In this document: piece after piece, positions 6,058-32,258 of the stretch
Position numbering within the stretch: the stretch's first letter is position 1
How the letters are laid out: the number at the start of each line of letters is the position of its first letter
From: Deltaproteobacteria bacterium
GTDB lineage: Bacteria; Desulfobacterota; Desulfomonilia; UBA1062
Assembly (NCBI GenBank): GCA_011046135.1
Contig: DSBG01000026.1
Location: 1 to 34,116 of the forward strand
DNA: 34,116 nucleotides
Direction: 5' to 3'
Translations under genes and position numbers: made by a program
The notes under the pieces: model-generated
What the model saw: the letters and a program-made list of their open reading frames with translations, nothing else
The model's database searches: none
Told to the model about the DNA's origin: nothing

Positions 6058-7359
6058 ATGAGCCCCGCGGATAACCCGTCACCGGGGGAGCAAGGAGCAG
6101 GTGTGAAGACGTACTACGATGAACAGGAAACCAGATCGAGAGACGAACGTGAAGAATCCATGAACAGGGACATCGCCGAGATGGTCCGCCTCGGGTATGA
6201 ACGTTCATCCACGGTGAAAAAGACCATGGACGGGCTGGGGATGAAACCATCCGACATTCAGGGGACACGGGATCTGGTGAACCTTCCCGTCATATCGCGG
6301 GAACAGCTCGTGGAGCTCCAAGCGATTACCCCGCCCTTTGGCGGGCTTGACGATCCCGGCGCAGAGATCGAGAGGATCTTCATCTCTCCGGGCCCGGTCT
6401 ATGAGCCTCATCTGGGCTCTCACGACCCCCTGTGGGCACGGGGGTACCAGGCAGCGGGATTCACGAAAGGCGACGTGGTGATCAACACCTTTTCCTATCA
6501 CATGGTGGCAGCAGGACTCACCTTCCACGGCGGCCTCACCCGTGTGGGCGCAACGGTGGTTCCTTCGGGAGCTTCTTCCACGCAGCAGCAGGTCCAGCTC
6601 ATAAGGGATCTCGGTGTGACCGGGTATACCGGAACCCCGAGCTTTCTGATGGCCCTCATCGAGAAGGCTTCCGAGATGGGTCACGACTTCGCCAAAGACT
6701 TCACGCTCAGACGGGCGAGCTTCGTCGCAGAGCCGCTGCAGCCATCTCTTCGGAAACGATTCGAGGAGGAGTTCGGCATCGACACCTACCAGATGTACGG
6801 TGCCACCGAGGTGGGAGATATTGCCTACGAGTGCGGAGAAAAAAGCGGCTGGCACCTGTGTGAAGAGGTGTTCGTTGAGATCGTCGACCCGGTGACCGGC
6901 ACACCCGTACAGCCTGGGGAACTGGGGGAGGTTGTGGTGACCCGCCTGAATTCCATTTTCTTCCTCTTTCGTTTCGGAACAGGAGACCTTTCGAGGATCA
7001 TCGAAGAGCCCTGCCCCTGCGGAAGAACCGCACTGAGGCTCGACGGAATCGCCGGCCGGGTGGGCGATGCCGTCAAGGTCCGCGGTCTGTTCGTGGCACC
7101 GAGCCAGGTGGGAAACCTTGCAGCACAGTTTCCCGGGATTGCTCTCCAGCTCCTCATCGAAAGGCAGGCCCACCGTGATATCCTCACGGCGAGAATCGAT
7201 CTCCGTGACACCATGATCGACCGGGGAGAATTTTTACCCCGTTTCGAACGGATCTTCCAGGAGGTGTGCACGGTCAAGGTCGACAAGGTGGTCTTTACCG
7301 AGCCCGGCAGCATCCCCGATGACGCCAAAGTCCTCCAGGACACGCGTGAGTGGAAATAA
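6058..7359 (+). CDS. Phenylacetate-CoA ligase-like (PaaK family) adenylate-forming protein
   Basis: A 433-residue ANL-superfamily protein of the PaaK/coenzyme F390 synthetase type. Recognisable features are YQMYGATEVGDIAYEC (A5 region, about residues 239-254), RFGTGDLSRI, the CPCGRT cysteine motif near 318 common in PaaK proteins, and GRVGDAVKVRGLFVAPSQV. Where PaaK has a Ser/Thr/Gly-rich ATP phosphate loop, this protein has FISPGPVYEP (near residue 106), so the loop is atypical. ATG 6058 is chosen because GGAGGAG at 6045-6051 is well spaced; a GTG at 6043 overlaps that site. It lies 66 bases after livF and probably ends the transporter operon. Activation of an aromatic or other carboxylic acid is plausible, but catalysis is uncertain given the altered loop. 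Confidence 0.82.
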   Translation: MSPADNPSPGEQGAGVKTYYDEQETRSRDEREESMNRDIAEMVRLGYERSSTVKKTMDGLGMKPSDIQGTRDLVNLPVISREQLVELQAITPPFGGLDDPGAEIERIFISPGPVYEPHLGSHDPLWARGYQAAGFTKGDVVINTFSYHMVAAGLTFHGGLTRVGATVVPSGASSTQQQVQLIRDLGVTGYTGTPSFLMALIEKASEMGHDFAKDFTLRRASFVAEPLQPSLRKRFEEEFGIDTYQMYGATEVGDIAYECGEKSGWHLCEEVFVEIVDPVTGTPVQPGELGEVVVTRLNSIFFLFRFGTGDLSRIIEEPCPCGRTALRLDGIAGRVGDAVKVRGLFVAPSQVGNLAAQFPGIALQLLIERQAHRDILTARIDLRDTMIDRGEFLPRFERIFQEVCTVKVDKVVFTEPGSIPDDAKVLQDTREWK

Positions 7360-7478: not shown

Positions 7479-7509
7479 CTATCCTCGAGCAAACACGGGA
7501 GGTTGTTTC

Positions 7510-7725
7510 ATGTCAAAGACCATCCTCATCTACGGAAAGTCAGGCTGACCGTATACCGACAAGGCCAGGTCGGTCTACGGGGACACGGCGACATACATCG
7601 ATGTCACGAAGGATAAGGCCAGGCTCGATGAAATGCTCAAGCTCTCCGGAGGCAGGCGTGTCGTGCCGGTCATTGTGGAAGGAGACAAAACCCAGGTTGG
7701 CTATGGAGGTACCTGAGGGGTATGA
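7510..7725 (+). CDS. Glutaredoxin-like selenoprotein with two in-frame UGA (Sec13, Sec69); UXX-star type
   Basis: Reading TGA 7546-7548 and TGA 7714-7716 as selenocysteine gives a 71-residue protein ending at TGA 7723-7725. It starts MSKTILIYGKSG, then U-PYT, which matches the glutaredoxin active site GCPYC with Sec at the attacking cysteine. A VVP near residue 52 fits the cis-proline strand, and VGYGGT-U-GV-stop ends the protein, placing Sec third from the end. GGGAGGT at 7497-7503 lies 6 bases before ATG. Each UGA is followed by a SECIS-like hairpin. From memory, small (seleno)proteins with a terminal U-x-x-stop are catalogued as the UXX-star family; I infer membership. A thiol/selenol redox role is likely; partners are unknown. 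The alternative, a pseudogene with two stops, is disfavoured because both stops fall at redox positions. Confidence 0.85.
7549..7580 (+). promoter_or_regulatory. SECIS-like hairpin for the first UGA
   Basis: The hairpin begins directly after TGA 7546-7548. CCGTA (7549-7553) pairs with TACGG (7576-7580), and ACCGAC (7555-7560) pairs with GTCGGT (7569-7574). A single T/C mismatch separates the two stems, and the 8-base apical loop AAGGCCAG contains GG. Location inside the coding region just after UGA and overall size match bacterial SECIS elements bound by SelB. Confidence 0.8.
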
Positions 7726-7727
7726 TG

Positions 7728-7744
7728 GCTCATCGGTGATGAGC
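7728..7744 (+). promoter_or_regulatory. SECIS-like hairpin for the second UGA, beyond the stop codon
   Basis: GCTCATC (7728-7734) pairs perfectly with GATGAGC (7738-7744) around GGT. The 17-base element starts 11 bases after TGA 7714-7716. From memory, this matches the E. coli minimal SECIS geometry (17-base upper stem-loop, 11-base spacing, GGU in the apical loop). It lies just after the terminal TGA, so the 3' untranslated region supplies the signal. There is no T-run after it, so it is not a simple terminator. Confidence 0.72.
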
Positions 7745-17013: not shown

Positions 17014-17042
17014 CTGTTCTCGTGTATGAAGCTCGAGAACAG
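17014..17042. repeat. Inverted repeat in the leader of the metal ATPase gene
   Basis: CTGTTCTCG (17014-17022) and CGAGAACAG (17034-17042) are perfect 9-base arms around an 11-base spacer. The element starts about 7 bases after the predicted transcription start and about 50 bases before ATG 17094. It could be an operator for a metal-responsive repressor or an mRNA hairpin. It does not match the CopY box (TACA-N2-TGTA) I know. Confidence 0.55.
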
Positions 17043-17093
17043 AGGGATCCAAAAATCGTACGGAGAGAAGCTCTCAATGTAAAGAGATCCGCA

Positions 17094-19563
17094 ATGAAGA
17101 AACGATCAATTAAAAAACCCTGCTGCGATGCACACGCCAACGAAGAAGGTCCTGTATACAGGGACCCTGTATGTTCCATGAGCACCCGGGATAAGAACAC
17201 GTTTCTGACCCTGGAGCACCAGGGCAACTCCTACTACTTCTGCAGTAAGCACTGTCTCGAGGCGTTCCGGGAAGATCCCGACCGTTACATCGATTCAGCA
17301 AAGGCAGAGACAGCCGAGAACAAGGCATGCAGGACCTTCACCTGCCCGATGCACCCGGAAATACACGCTCCTTCCTCTGGCGCGTGCCCAAGGTGCGGTA
17401 TGGCTCTGGAGCGGGAATCCCCTGACCTGCATCTCTATCCCGAAGCAGCGATGTGGACCTGTCCCATGCACCCGGAGATCGTTTCAGAAGAGCCCGGATC
17501 ATGCCCGAAATGCGGAATGGCCCTGGAACCTGTGACCCCGCCGGAAGAAGATGCGATCAACCCCGAATATGCAGACATGAGGAAGCGTTTCTGGATTGGG
17601 CTCATCTTCACCCTTCCGGTGTTTTTCATCGCCATGCGGGACATGCTTGGGCTTTCCTTTATCGAAACTCTTGCCTCCGCAAAACGTCTGGCACTTTTCG
17701 AGGGGATTCTTACAACGCCGGTTGTGCTGTGGGCAGGCTGGCCCCTCCTTCAACACGCCTGGCAATCCCTGGTGAACCGAAGCCTGAACATGTTCACCCT
17801 CATCGGACTCGGAGTCCTGGTTTCTTACGTCTACAGCCTCGTTGCCCTGCTGTTCCCCGGAATCTTTCCCGTTTCCTTCAGGATCCGGGAAGGGCTCGTG
17901 GGCGTCTACTTCGAGGCTGCCTCTGTCATCGTAACCCTTGTACTCCTCGGCCAGGTCATGGAGCTCAAAGCCCGCAGCAAGACCGGGGAGGCCATCAAAT
18001 CCCTGCTTGGACTTTCACCGAAACAGGCACGAAGGGTAAACCAGGATGGATCGGAGGAGGATGTGCCCATCAACGAGGTGCAACCGGGGGATCGTTTGAG
18101 AATAAGACCCGGTGAAAAGATACCGGTGGATGGAGTCGTCATGGAGGGATCGAGCAGTGTTGACGAGTCTATGCTCACAGGAGAAGCGATCCCCGTGGAA
18201 AAAGAACCCGGAAGTTCTCTGGTGGGAGCAACCATAAACGAAAGCGGAACACTTCTCATGGAGGCTGAAAAGGTCGGTGCCGAAACGGTTCTCGCACAGA
18301 TCATACGCATGGTATCCCAAGCCCAGAGAAGCAGGGCCCCGATCCAGAGAATAGCCGACAGTGTCTCGGGGTACTTCGTCCCCGTTGTGATCCTTGTCTC
18401 GGCGGTATCCTTTCTCACCTGGGCACTGATCGGCCCTGAGCCCAGGCTGGCCTATGCCATCATCGTGGCAGTTTCGGTCCTCATCATTGCCTGTCCCTGC
18501 GCACTCGGACTGGCAACACCCATGTCGATCATGGTTGCCATGGGAAAGGGAGCGAGCCTCGGCGTTCTCTTCAGTGATGCCGAGGCCGTTGAGATTCTGC
18601 GGAAGGTGGACACCCTGGTTGTCGACAAGACCGGGACCCTGACCGAGGGGAAGCCCCGGCTTGTGGAAATGATCCCTGCTTCCGGGTGGGACGACCATGA
18701 TCTCCTCCTGTATGCGGCGAGCCTGGAACAGGGGAGTGAACACCCCCTCGCCTCGGCAATCATCTCTGGAGCAACCTCCCGTGGCGTCTCTCTCTCCTGC
18801 AGAGGACTTTTCTTCCCATGCCGGCATGGGTGTCAGCGGGAAGGTACAAGGACACGCTGTTGCGGCAGGAACGGCCAAGCTGCTCTCCAAACTCGGCATT
18901 GACCCGGGTGATCTTGAAGAAAAGACCAGAGACATGCACAATGCAGGTCAGAGCCTGGTGTATGTTGCCATAGACAACAAGATCTCGGGAGTATTTCGTA
19001 TTTTCGATCCCATCAAACAAACTACACCGGCTGCAATCAAGCGCCTTCATGACGCAGACATCAGGATCGTGATGCTCACTGGAGACACCGCCTCCTCAGC
19101 ACGCTCCGTTGCCCAGACCCTCGGGATCGACGAAGTACAGGCAGAGATCCTCCCGCAGGACAAGGCATCAGCGGTTCGACGCCTTCAGGAATCTGGTCGG
19201 ATCGTTGCGATGGCCGGCGATGGGATCAACGATGCCCCTGCTCTGGCTCAGGCCCATGTGGGTATCGCCATGGGAACCGGTACCGATGTGGCCATGGAAA
19301 GTGCGCATGTTACCCTGGTCAAGGGTGACCTCATGGGCATTGCCAAGGCACGGCTCTTGAGCATCGCCACCATGCGCAATATCAAACAGAATCTCTTCTT
19401 CGCTTTTGTCTACAATGCACTGTGCGTGCCCGTAGCCGCAGGAGTTCTCTATCCCGTGCTCGGTCTTCTGCTCAGCCCCATGATCGCTGCTGCGGCCATG
19501 AGCTTCAGTTCTGTTTCCGTGATAGCAAATTCTCTTCGCCTGAGAACAACGAAGATTGGATAG
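17094..19563 (+). pseudogene. copA: Cu(I)-type P1B ATPase, frameshifted at a TC tract
   Basis: Joined across one frameshift this would be an 823-residue copper-exporting P-type ATPase. The N-terminus has a YHS-like domain ([25 protein letters not shown]) and two TCPMHPEI...CPxCGMALE metal-binding repeats. The CPC motif is at about 467, phosphorylated D511 lies in [15 protein letters not shown] is the ATP-binding HP motif, and [10 protein letters not shown] is intact. FVYNALCVP and [12 protein letters not shown] match Cu(I) selectivity signatures of helices 7 and 8. The first frame runs to TGA 18902; the correct continuation is in another frame from about 18796. The shift falls in (TC)5 at 18787-18796; one more TC restores [21 protein letters not shown] 17094 is preferred over GTG 17022, which lies inside the inverted repeat. 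Without correction, the hinge and last helices are lost. Confidence 0.88.
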
Positions 19564-22073: not shown

Positions 22074-23136
22074 CTATTCGGGCGGATACTCCCTGATCTT
22101 CGAGGGAACCTCGAGGGCGGTCAGGGCTGCCTCCAAGAGGGCTTCAAGCTCATTCTCTCCGGGATATATCCTGACCCGACCCAGAAATCCCACCATCTCG
22201 CATATCCAGGTCGTGAACATCTCTGACGCCGCAAGGCCTCCGGTGAGCACAATACTGTCAGGATTTTTCCCGAGAACTGCAGCCATGGCACCGATCTGTT
22301 TGCCGACCTGGTATGCCATTGCCCTGTAGATCACCCTGGCCTGTTCGTCTCCTGACGTGATACGACGCTCAACCTCACGGGCATCTCGCGTCCCCAGGTG
22401 GGCAAAGAGCCCGGATCCCCCAACAAGGAGGTTCCGAGCCTGCTCCTGCGTGAGTCCCCGATCGAGCACATAGTCGATGAGCTGCAGCGTGGGCATTTCT
22501 CCCGCTCGTTCAGGGGTGAACGGCCCTTCGGAAAGACCATGGGTGGCATCGACAACCTTGCCCTGCAGGTGAGCCCCAACGGTAGTTCCTCCGCCCATGT
22601 GTGCGACGATGAGACAGGAATCCTCGTAGGCCCTGCCCATCTCCCTGCAGACTCTTCTCGCACACGCCTTCTGGTTCAGGGCGTGAAATGCGCTTGTCCG
22701 GGGTATGTCCGGCAATCCTGAAACCCTGGCGAGATCTGAAAACTCGTCGGTGCTGGGGGGGGTCGACGATGATCGCATCTCTTCCGAGCTTCCGGGCAAG
22801 CTCAAAGGCGATGAGCGGTCCAAGGGCAGAGGCGTGTTCTCCGAAACGCCCGCTCAAGAGATCATCGCACATTGCCTCATTGACGCGATACATGCCGGAG
22901 GGAACAGGCCGGAGAAGCCCTCCCCTGCTCACAAACAGATCGAGCCTCTCAAGAGAGACCTCGCAAGAGGAGAGAACGTCTTCTATGCTCTGTCTCCTGA
23001 GGGTACGTTCCTCCAGGATTCCGGATCCTCTCTGTGATTCATGCTCCAGTGTTTCCCTGAAGAGCTCTTTCTTTCCCCGGAACACGGCGATCCTCGTCGT
23101 GGTGGAGCCGATATCGAGCACGAGAACCTCAGGCAT
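22074..23136 (-). pseudogene. buk: Butyrate kinase, frameshifted in a C8 tract
   Basis: Joined across one frameshift this is a 353-residue butyrate kinase of the acetate/butyrate kinase (ASKHA) family, converting butyryl-phosphate and ADP to butyrate and ATP. The N-terminal phosphate loop is VLDIGSTTTRIAVF; the family usually has NPGST here. The middle has LIVAHMGGGTTVGAHLQGKV, then VDATHGLSEGPFTPERAG, and the end has SIVLTGGLAAS. The first frame (ATG 23136) reads correctly to DAIIVDPP and then fails. The correct continuation STDEFSDLARVSGLPDIPRT is in another frame. The break is at eight G on the + strand (22755-22762); seven would restore the frame. GGGGGTG precedes the ATG, which overlaps the upstream ptb-like gene by 8 bases. 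Phase variation, a real mutation or a sequencing error are all possible. Confidence 0.88.
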
Positions 23137-31490: not shown

Positions 31491-32258
31491 CTACGATGTC
31501 CTATCCTTGTCCGATAATCCCTGCTTTCCCACTGGTATTTCAATTCTCTGGATCTCGGGCCGGATTTTTTCGATAATCGTGGCATGGTAATGCTCTTCCT
31601 GCTGCCCTCGGAATAAGCTGTAACACATGATCAGCAACACAATGGTGAAGGGCAGGCCTGTGGCAATAGACGCGCTTTGCAGGGCGGCCAGGCCTCCACC
31701 CATGAGCAGTACCGCGGCGCACACTCCTTCCATGACTCCCCAGAATATTTGCTGGGGCACCGGAGAATCGAGCTTTCCACCGGAAGTGAGATGATCGACC
31801 ACCAGAGAGCCGGAATCAGAGGAGGTAACGAAGAAAATCGTTACCAGTACTATGCCGACAAAAGATGTTATTGTTGTGAAAGGAAAACTTTCGAGCATCA
31901 CGAAAAGTGCGGTTGAAACATCTTTGCTTACGGCGCCGACAATGTCAGCGGTTCCGGTGAGCTGAAGCCAGAGCGCCGATCCGCCAAATGATGACATCCA
32001 CAGAAATGAGAACAGCGTCGGAAAAACCATGACGCCCAGGATAAATTCACGCACGGTGCGACCCTTGGAGATTCGCGCGATAAACATTCCAACAAAGGGA
32101 GACCACAATATCCACCACCCCCAGTAGAAAATGGTCCAGGCATTATACCACCTCATGTACATACTTCGTGTGTTTTCTATTGATTGACGGAAGAAGAACT
32201 GTTTGTCATGCAGAACTATTCCAACTCTCATATAACCATGACTACAAAACAGCATCAT
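31491..32258 (-). pseudogene. BCCT-family transporter, C-terminal half only
   Basis: The 255-residue open frame has the second half of a betaine/carnitine/choline transporter. NAWTIFYWGWWILWSPFVGM followed by FIARISKGRTVREFI, and TSSDSGSLVVDHLTSGGK, are highly characteristic. Family members are usually 500 residues or more, so the first six or so helices and much of the substrate site are absent. The first 35 residues (from ATG 32258) look only loosely like family sequence. Upstream there are 129 bases and then hcp in the opposite direction, leaving no room for the missing half. I read it as a 5'-truncated remnant. Its C-terminus appears intact. The cause could be a deletion that brought hcp next to it. 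Confidence 0.82.

Follow-up and report, generated by a model that had tools for sequence, protein, structure and literature searches.

The open frame at positions 7510-7725 (plus strand) of the window, that is, the whole stretch of 34,116 nucleotides analysed here, is identified by comparative sequence evidence as a genuine gene for a glutaredoxin-like protein, the two internal UGA codons of which are predicted to be decoded as selenocysteine (Sec). The gene consists of 71 codons and a stop codon, and a Shine-Dalgarno-like GGGAGG (7497-7502, plus strand) is located 7 nt 5' of the ATG at 7510. Three in-frame TGAs are present. Codon 13 (UGA 1, 7546-7548, plus strand) lies in the glutaredoxin active-site motif U-P-Y-T, codon 69 (UGA 2, 7714-7716, plus strand) belongs to the C-terminal U-G-V-stop, and the third TGA is the stop codon (7723-7725, plus strand). 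With TGA read as U, the 71-residue translation is MSKTILIYGKSGUPYTDKARSVYGDTATYIDVTKDKARLDEMLKLSGGRRVVPVIVEGDKTQVGYGGTUGV, which is devoid of Cys. The active site U13-P-Y-T16 corresponds to UxxT, with no second Cys or Sec at the CxxC place, and the C-terminus U69-G70-V71-stop displays the U-x-x-stop of UXX-star proteins.

The UXX-star label given in the first-pass annotation was clearly confirmed by profile searches. The protein scored 105.2 bits against NF041114 ('UXX-star selenoprotein family 1', cut-off 72), with residues 5-71 aligned over profile positions 1-70. The broader profile NF041212 was also passed (80.9 bits, cut-off 66), as was the glutaredoxin profile PF00462 (31.3 bits, gathering threshold 22.9). 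Scores for families 2 and 3 and for the HUGP/GUXX-star fusion were far below the cut-offs (NF041211, NF047338 and NF045501 with 53, 60 and 49 bits against 100, 97 and 325, respectively). The protein belongs to a catalogued, widespread and uncharacterised family.

Conservation of the UGA codons among homologues

Both TGAs were found at identical columns in 14 homologues of the same taxonomic family (61-74% identical), in line with the 15-member alignment obtained for the gene. When the frame was read through both TGAs and compared with 11 relatives, pN/pS values of 0.29-0.38 were obtained, non-synonymous changes being well under synonymous ones. The two in-frame Sec codons proposed earlier, and coding conservation across both of them, were hence corroborated.

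Matches above the NF041114 cut-off were detected in 16 of 42 genomes of the class and in 99 of 395 genomes sampled from the phylum. In the class, 15 two-TGA matches (including that of the window) occurred in 14 genomes. The 103 phylum matches contained two TGAs in 75 cases, one in 24 and none in four, the last two classes undercounting the second UGA as several alignments end just before it. A search of IMG/VR viral contigs revealed no relative. Two Sec are the normal state of NF041114 members, and the family is listed with two Sec and the motif UxxT as 'Distant Grx-like protein 1' in Table 1 of a 2026 review (PMC13188914). The initial view that two Sec would be unusual was consequently not upheld.

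A comparison of 49 fully read homologues, one of them the window gene, revealed that the C-terminal Sec is constant and that the active-site Sec exchanges with Cys. The C-terminal position was UGA in all 49 sequences. Position 13 was encoded by TGA in 37 and by TGC or TGT in 12, a ratio that is biased, as eight of the 12 Cys13 homologues had been picked up by scanning for Cys-codon patterns. No Cys was found at position 69 among the 49, all of which were collected as UXX-star-like, so that Cys69 forms are perhaps under-sampled. The U-x-x search required a U, and any Cys69 form would have shown as 'not found', an outcome that did not occur. The expectation of U or C in homologues held for position 13, but at position 69 only U was seen. 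The codon following U-x-x was TGA in 21 homologues, TAA in 14 and TAG in 13, one homologue being a residue longer; the third TGA of the window gene is therefore a stop codon, and its reading as a further Sec was ruled out by the presence of TAA or TAG in more than half of the homologues.

Several relatives deserve a separate mention. In one genome, two two-Sec UXX-star genes (L045 and L024, G036:C16:100071-100696) are arranged in tandem about 225 bases apart. A second group of NF041114 matches carries the motif GTD[TS]UPY; these proteins have Sec13, and their C-terminus is longer and lacks a clear U-x-x-stop. Two members of this group were viewed in their genomic context and both are located among arsenic genes: one context comprises ArsM, Acr3 and an ArsR-type regulator, and the other an arsenate-reductase-like gene together with homologues of these. 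One member of the arsenic-linked group (L038, 1501-1665, minus strand) displays TGG (Trp) in place of the active-site TGA and a degraded C-terminal part, and is perhaps a decaying copy. Relatives with a Cys active site and a C-terminal Sec of UXX-star type (L058 and L059, 8001-8207) lie in a common cluster together with genes for CbiM-type cobalt uptake and for a cobalamin adenosyltransferase.

SECIS-like hairpins

Two SECIS-like hairpins were identified on the plus strand, the loop of each starting 18 nt after its UGA. Hairpin 1 (AGGCC-AGGTC-GGTCT, 7562-7576) is located within the coding region after UGA 1. Its five-pair helix is possible in 19 of 19 aligned sequences with a loop AGGUC or near to it, and all of the 95 pair cells (100%) are paired. 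It varies little because it lies within the coding region, and a single compensatory change (G-C to C-G in one genome) was observed. From the window sequence alone, a longer minimum-energy fold at 7549-7580 is more stable than hairpin 1; however, only 71% of its cells are paired in relatives, with zero compensatory changes, and the shorter AGGCC/GGTCT hairpin is therefore preferred.

Hairpin 2 (GCTCATC-GGT-GATGAGC, 7728-7744) lies wholly 3' of the stop codon, and the comparison with homologues thereby added a covarying hairpin beyond the interval of the first-pass annotation, which had delimited the gene exactly but ended at the stop codon. In this hairpin 98.9% of the cells are paired and five of the six pairs show changes on both sides. 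Its covariation score was reached by none of 500 shuffles, no slid version came close, and the helix was recovered unprompted by RNAalifold. A role as terminator was rejected, as no T-run follows the hairpin in the window.

A SECIS model for bacteria that includes a G[G/U] loop rule is quoted in PMC13188914. A loop N(0-1)G[G/U] after position 13 was found in 31 of 37 Sec13 genes versus three of 12 Cys13 genes; for the C-terminal UGA the corresponding figures were 34 of 37 and 11 of 12, against a background of about 10-23% in shuffled sequences. Judged from these predicted loops, Cys13 genes mostly drop hairpin 1 but retain hairpin 2; they form a natural control for the pairing of hairpins with UGAs and suggest which hairpin would serve which codon.

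Selenocysteine machinery and genomic surroundings

The Sec machinery was searched across the whole genome. SelB (343 bits, cut-off 242), tRNA-Sec (selC, 74.6 bits, gathering threshold 47) and SelD (374.6 bits, cut-off 125) are present (contigs C38, C80 and C7), and SelD itself carries one in-frame TGA. In the 181 contigs of this draft, rated 99% complete by markers, selA was not found by TIGR00474, PF03841 or a SelA protein query from a genome of the same taxonomic family, so that of the four genes whose presence had been made a check of the two-Sec reading, selB, selC and selD were recovered but selA was not. SepSecS as a substitute for SelA was not found either. In the same search, a selA match was obtained in 34 of 41 genomes and seven were without it; six of these are other genomes of the same family, two of them rated 98% complete. 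A gene located near selA in a relative (G033), sought with regard to a possible assembly gap, had no match in this genome. An assembly gap is probably the simplest reading of the missing selA, because SelD carries a UGA itself, and such gaps probably account for the six other genomes as well.

A gene for a PaaK-like AMP ligase ends at 7359, upstream of the selenoprotein gene, and the convergent genes downstream encode a dGTPase, glyS, glyQ, recO and an MgtE-type transporter. The order of the PaaK-like ligase followed by dGTPase, glyS, glyQ and recO is common to close relatives, but the neighbours change in distant ones. This points to inherited order, and a functional cluster was rejected. Elsewhere in the window, a copper-type P-type ATPase (17022-19563, plus strand; CopA profile positions 191-577 and 562-831) and a butyrate kinase (22074-23136, minus strand; profile positions 4-131 and 130-355) are each split over two overlapping frames, as a result of a frameshift or a sequencing error. 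At 31491-32258 (minus strand), only the C-terminal part of a BCCT betaine transporter (profile positions 283-479 of 483) is left as a remnant.

Fold, possible function and related selenoproteins

An AlphaFold2 model built from a 15-sequence alignment (mean pLDDT 88.8) displays the glutaredoxin topology strand-helix-strand-helix-strand-strand. The best matches among solved structures identified by Foldseek were glutaredoxins and NrdH, including glutathione-bound E. coli Grx3 and cGrx2, and sequence matches were also to glutaredoxins. Together with the PF00462 score, the model and the PDB matches bear out the glutaredoxin-like nature that had been proposed from the sequence. In glutaredoxins, the Gly-Gly turn that follows the last strand helps to hold the gamma-glutamyl part of glutathione beside the active-site residue. 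By comparison, G66-G67-T68-U69 occupy this turn in the window protein.

With a confidence slightly better than even, the protein is predicted from its sequence to be a small single-domain thiol/selenol oxidoreductase of glutaredoxin fold, in which a Sec13-Sec69 couple would be used instead of a glutathione mixed disulfide. During translation, SelB and Sec-tRNA would read UGA 1 aided by the in-frame hairpin 1 and UGA 2 aided by hairpin 2 just 3' of the stop codon, both hairpins having been recognised by comparison. Sec13, located where helix 1 begins, would be the attacking selenol. Sec69 would act as the resolving partner; it follows the Gly-Gly turn, which in ordinary glutaredoxins is the binding place for the gamma-glutamyl end of glutathione. 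The Sec13-Sec69 bond (Cys13-Sec69 in some relatives) would stand in for the glutathione mixed disulfide. Exchange of Sec and Cys at position 13 with a constant C-terminal Sec is expected if both residues take part in redox chemistry. Two observations count against this reading: position 69 is never Cys in the 49 homologues, as would not be expected of a simple resolving residue, and selA was not found. The wider proposal of a glutathione-free glutaredoxin, where a C-terminal Sec that is seldom or never Cys stands in for glutathione by pairing across the fold with Sec13 or Cys13, is offered tentatively and with some doubt. If true, a Sec placed two codons before the stop would allow its SECIS hairpin to lie in the 3' UTR, where no coding constraint acts, and the family would represent a naturally occurring two-SECIS system, the first hairpin being within the frame and the second beyond it.

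The principal competing explanation is that the two Sec form a binding site for soft metals or metalloids (Hg, As, Cu, Co). On this view the protein would carry or scavenge metals, or serve as the partner of a reductase, and would not be a general redoxin. Sec residues of UXX-star proteins were indeed proposed as possible metal ligands (PMC13188914), some relatives above the NF041114 cut-off sit among arsenic genes (ArsM, Acr3, ArsR), and other UXX-star genes adjoin cobalt uptake and corrinoid genes. However, the window gene and its close orthologues stand alone beside the dGTPase gene and glyS/glyQ, with no adjacent metal gene, and the active-site and cis-Pro features are redoxin-like; this explanation is considered rather unlikely.

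A monothiol-type glutaredoxin, in which Sec13 would work alone, using an external thiol of low molecular weight, and Sec69 would tune the site without a bond to Sec13, would account for the U-P-Y-T motif, for the lack of a Cys or Sec partner at the CxxC place and for glutathione-bound glutaredoxins being among the closest folds. It is nevertheless regarded as improbable, since no residue of the family is as constant as Sec69, which, judged from known glutaredoxins, sits at the place expected for bound glutathione. That the frame is a pseudogene or a chance open frame interrupted by stop codons could be suspected from three TGAs in 72 codons and from the selA result. This was refuted, and is held to be next to impossible, given the identical TGA columns in the 14 close homologues and far beyond, a pN/pS of about 0.3 and the covariation of the hairpins.

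The window protein can be compared with known selenoproteins. Selenoprotein L, with two Sec in a UxxU motif of a thioredoxin-like fold, is reported to form a diselenide bond. Both proteins have two Sec in a thioredoxin-like fold in common, but the Sec are three residues apart there and 56 residues apart here. For selenoprotein L, Shchedrina 2007 is cited in PMC2398784. The selenium-containing glutaredoxin of Clostridium and cGrx2 are longer proteins with UxxC and one Sec, for which glutathione-bound structures are known, and they are not known to carry a C-terminal U-x-x-stop. They resemble the window protein in fold and in the Sec-capable active-site position (cGrx2 structures 4tr0 and 4tr1; reviewed in PMC13188914). 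With NF041211, NF047338 and NF045501, the fold and the idea of a C-terminal U-x-x-stop are common, but the scores set the window protein well apart from them. In contrast, it matches NF041114 in length, glutaredoxin fold, UxxT motif, C-terminal U-x-x-stop and two Sec, and is an ordinary member of that family with no difference that matters.
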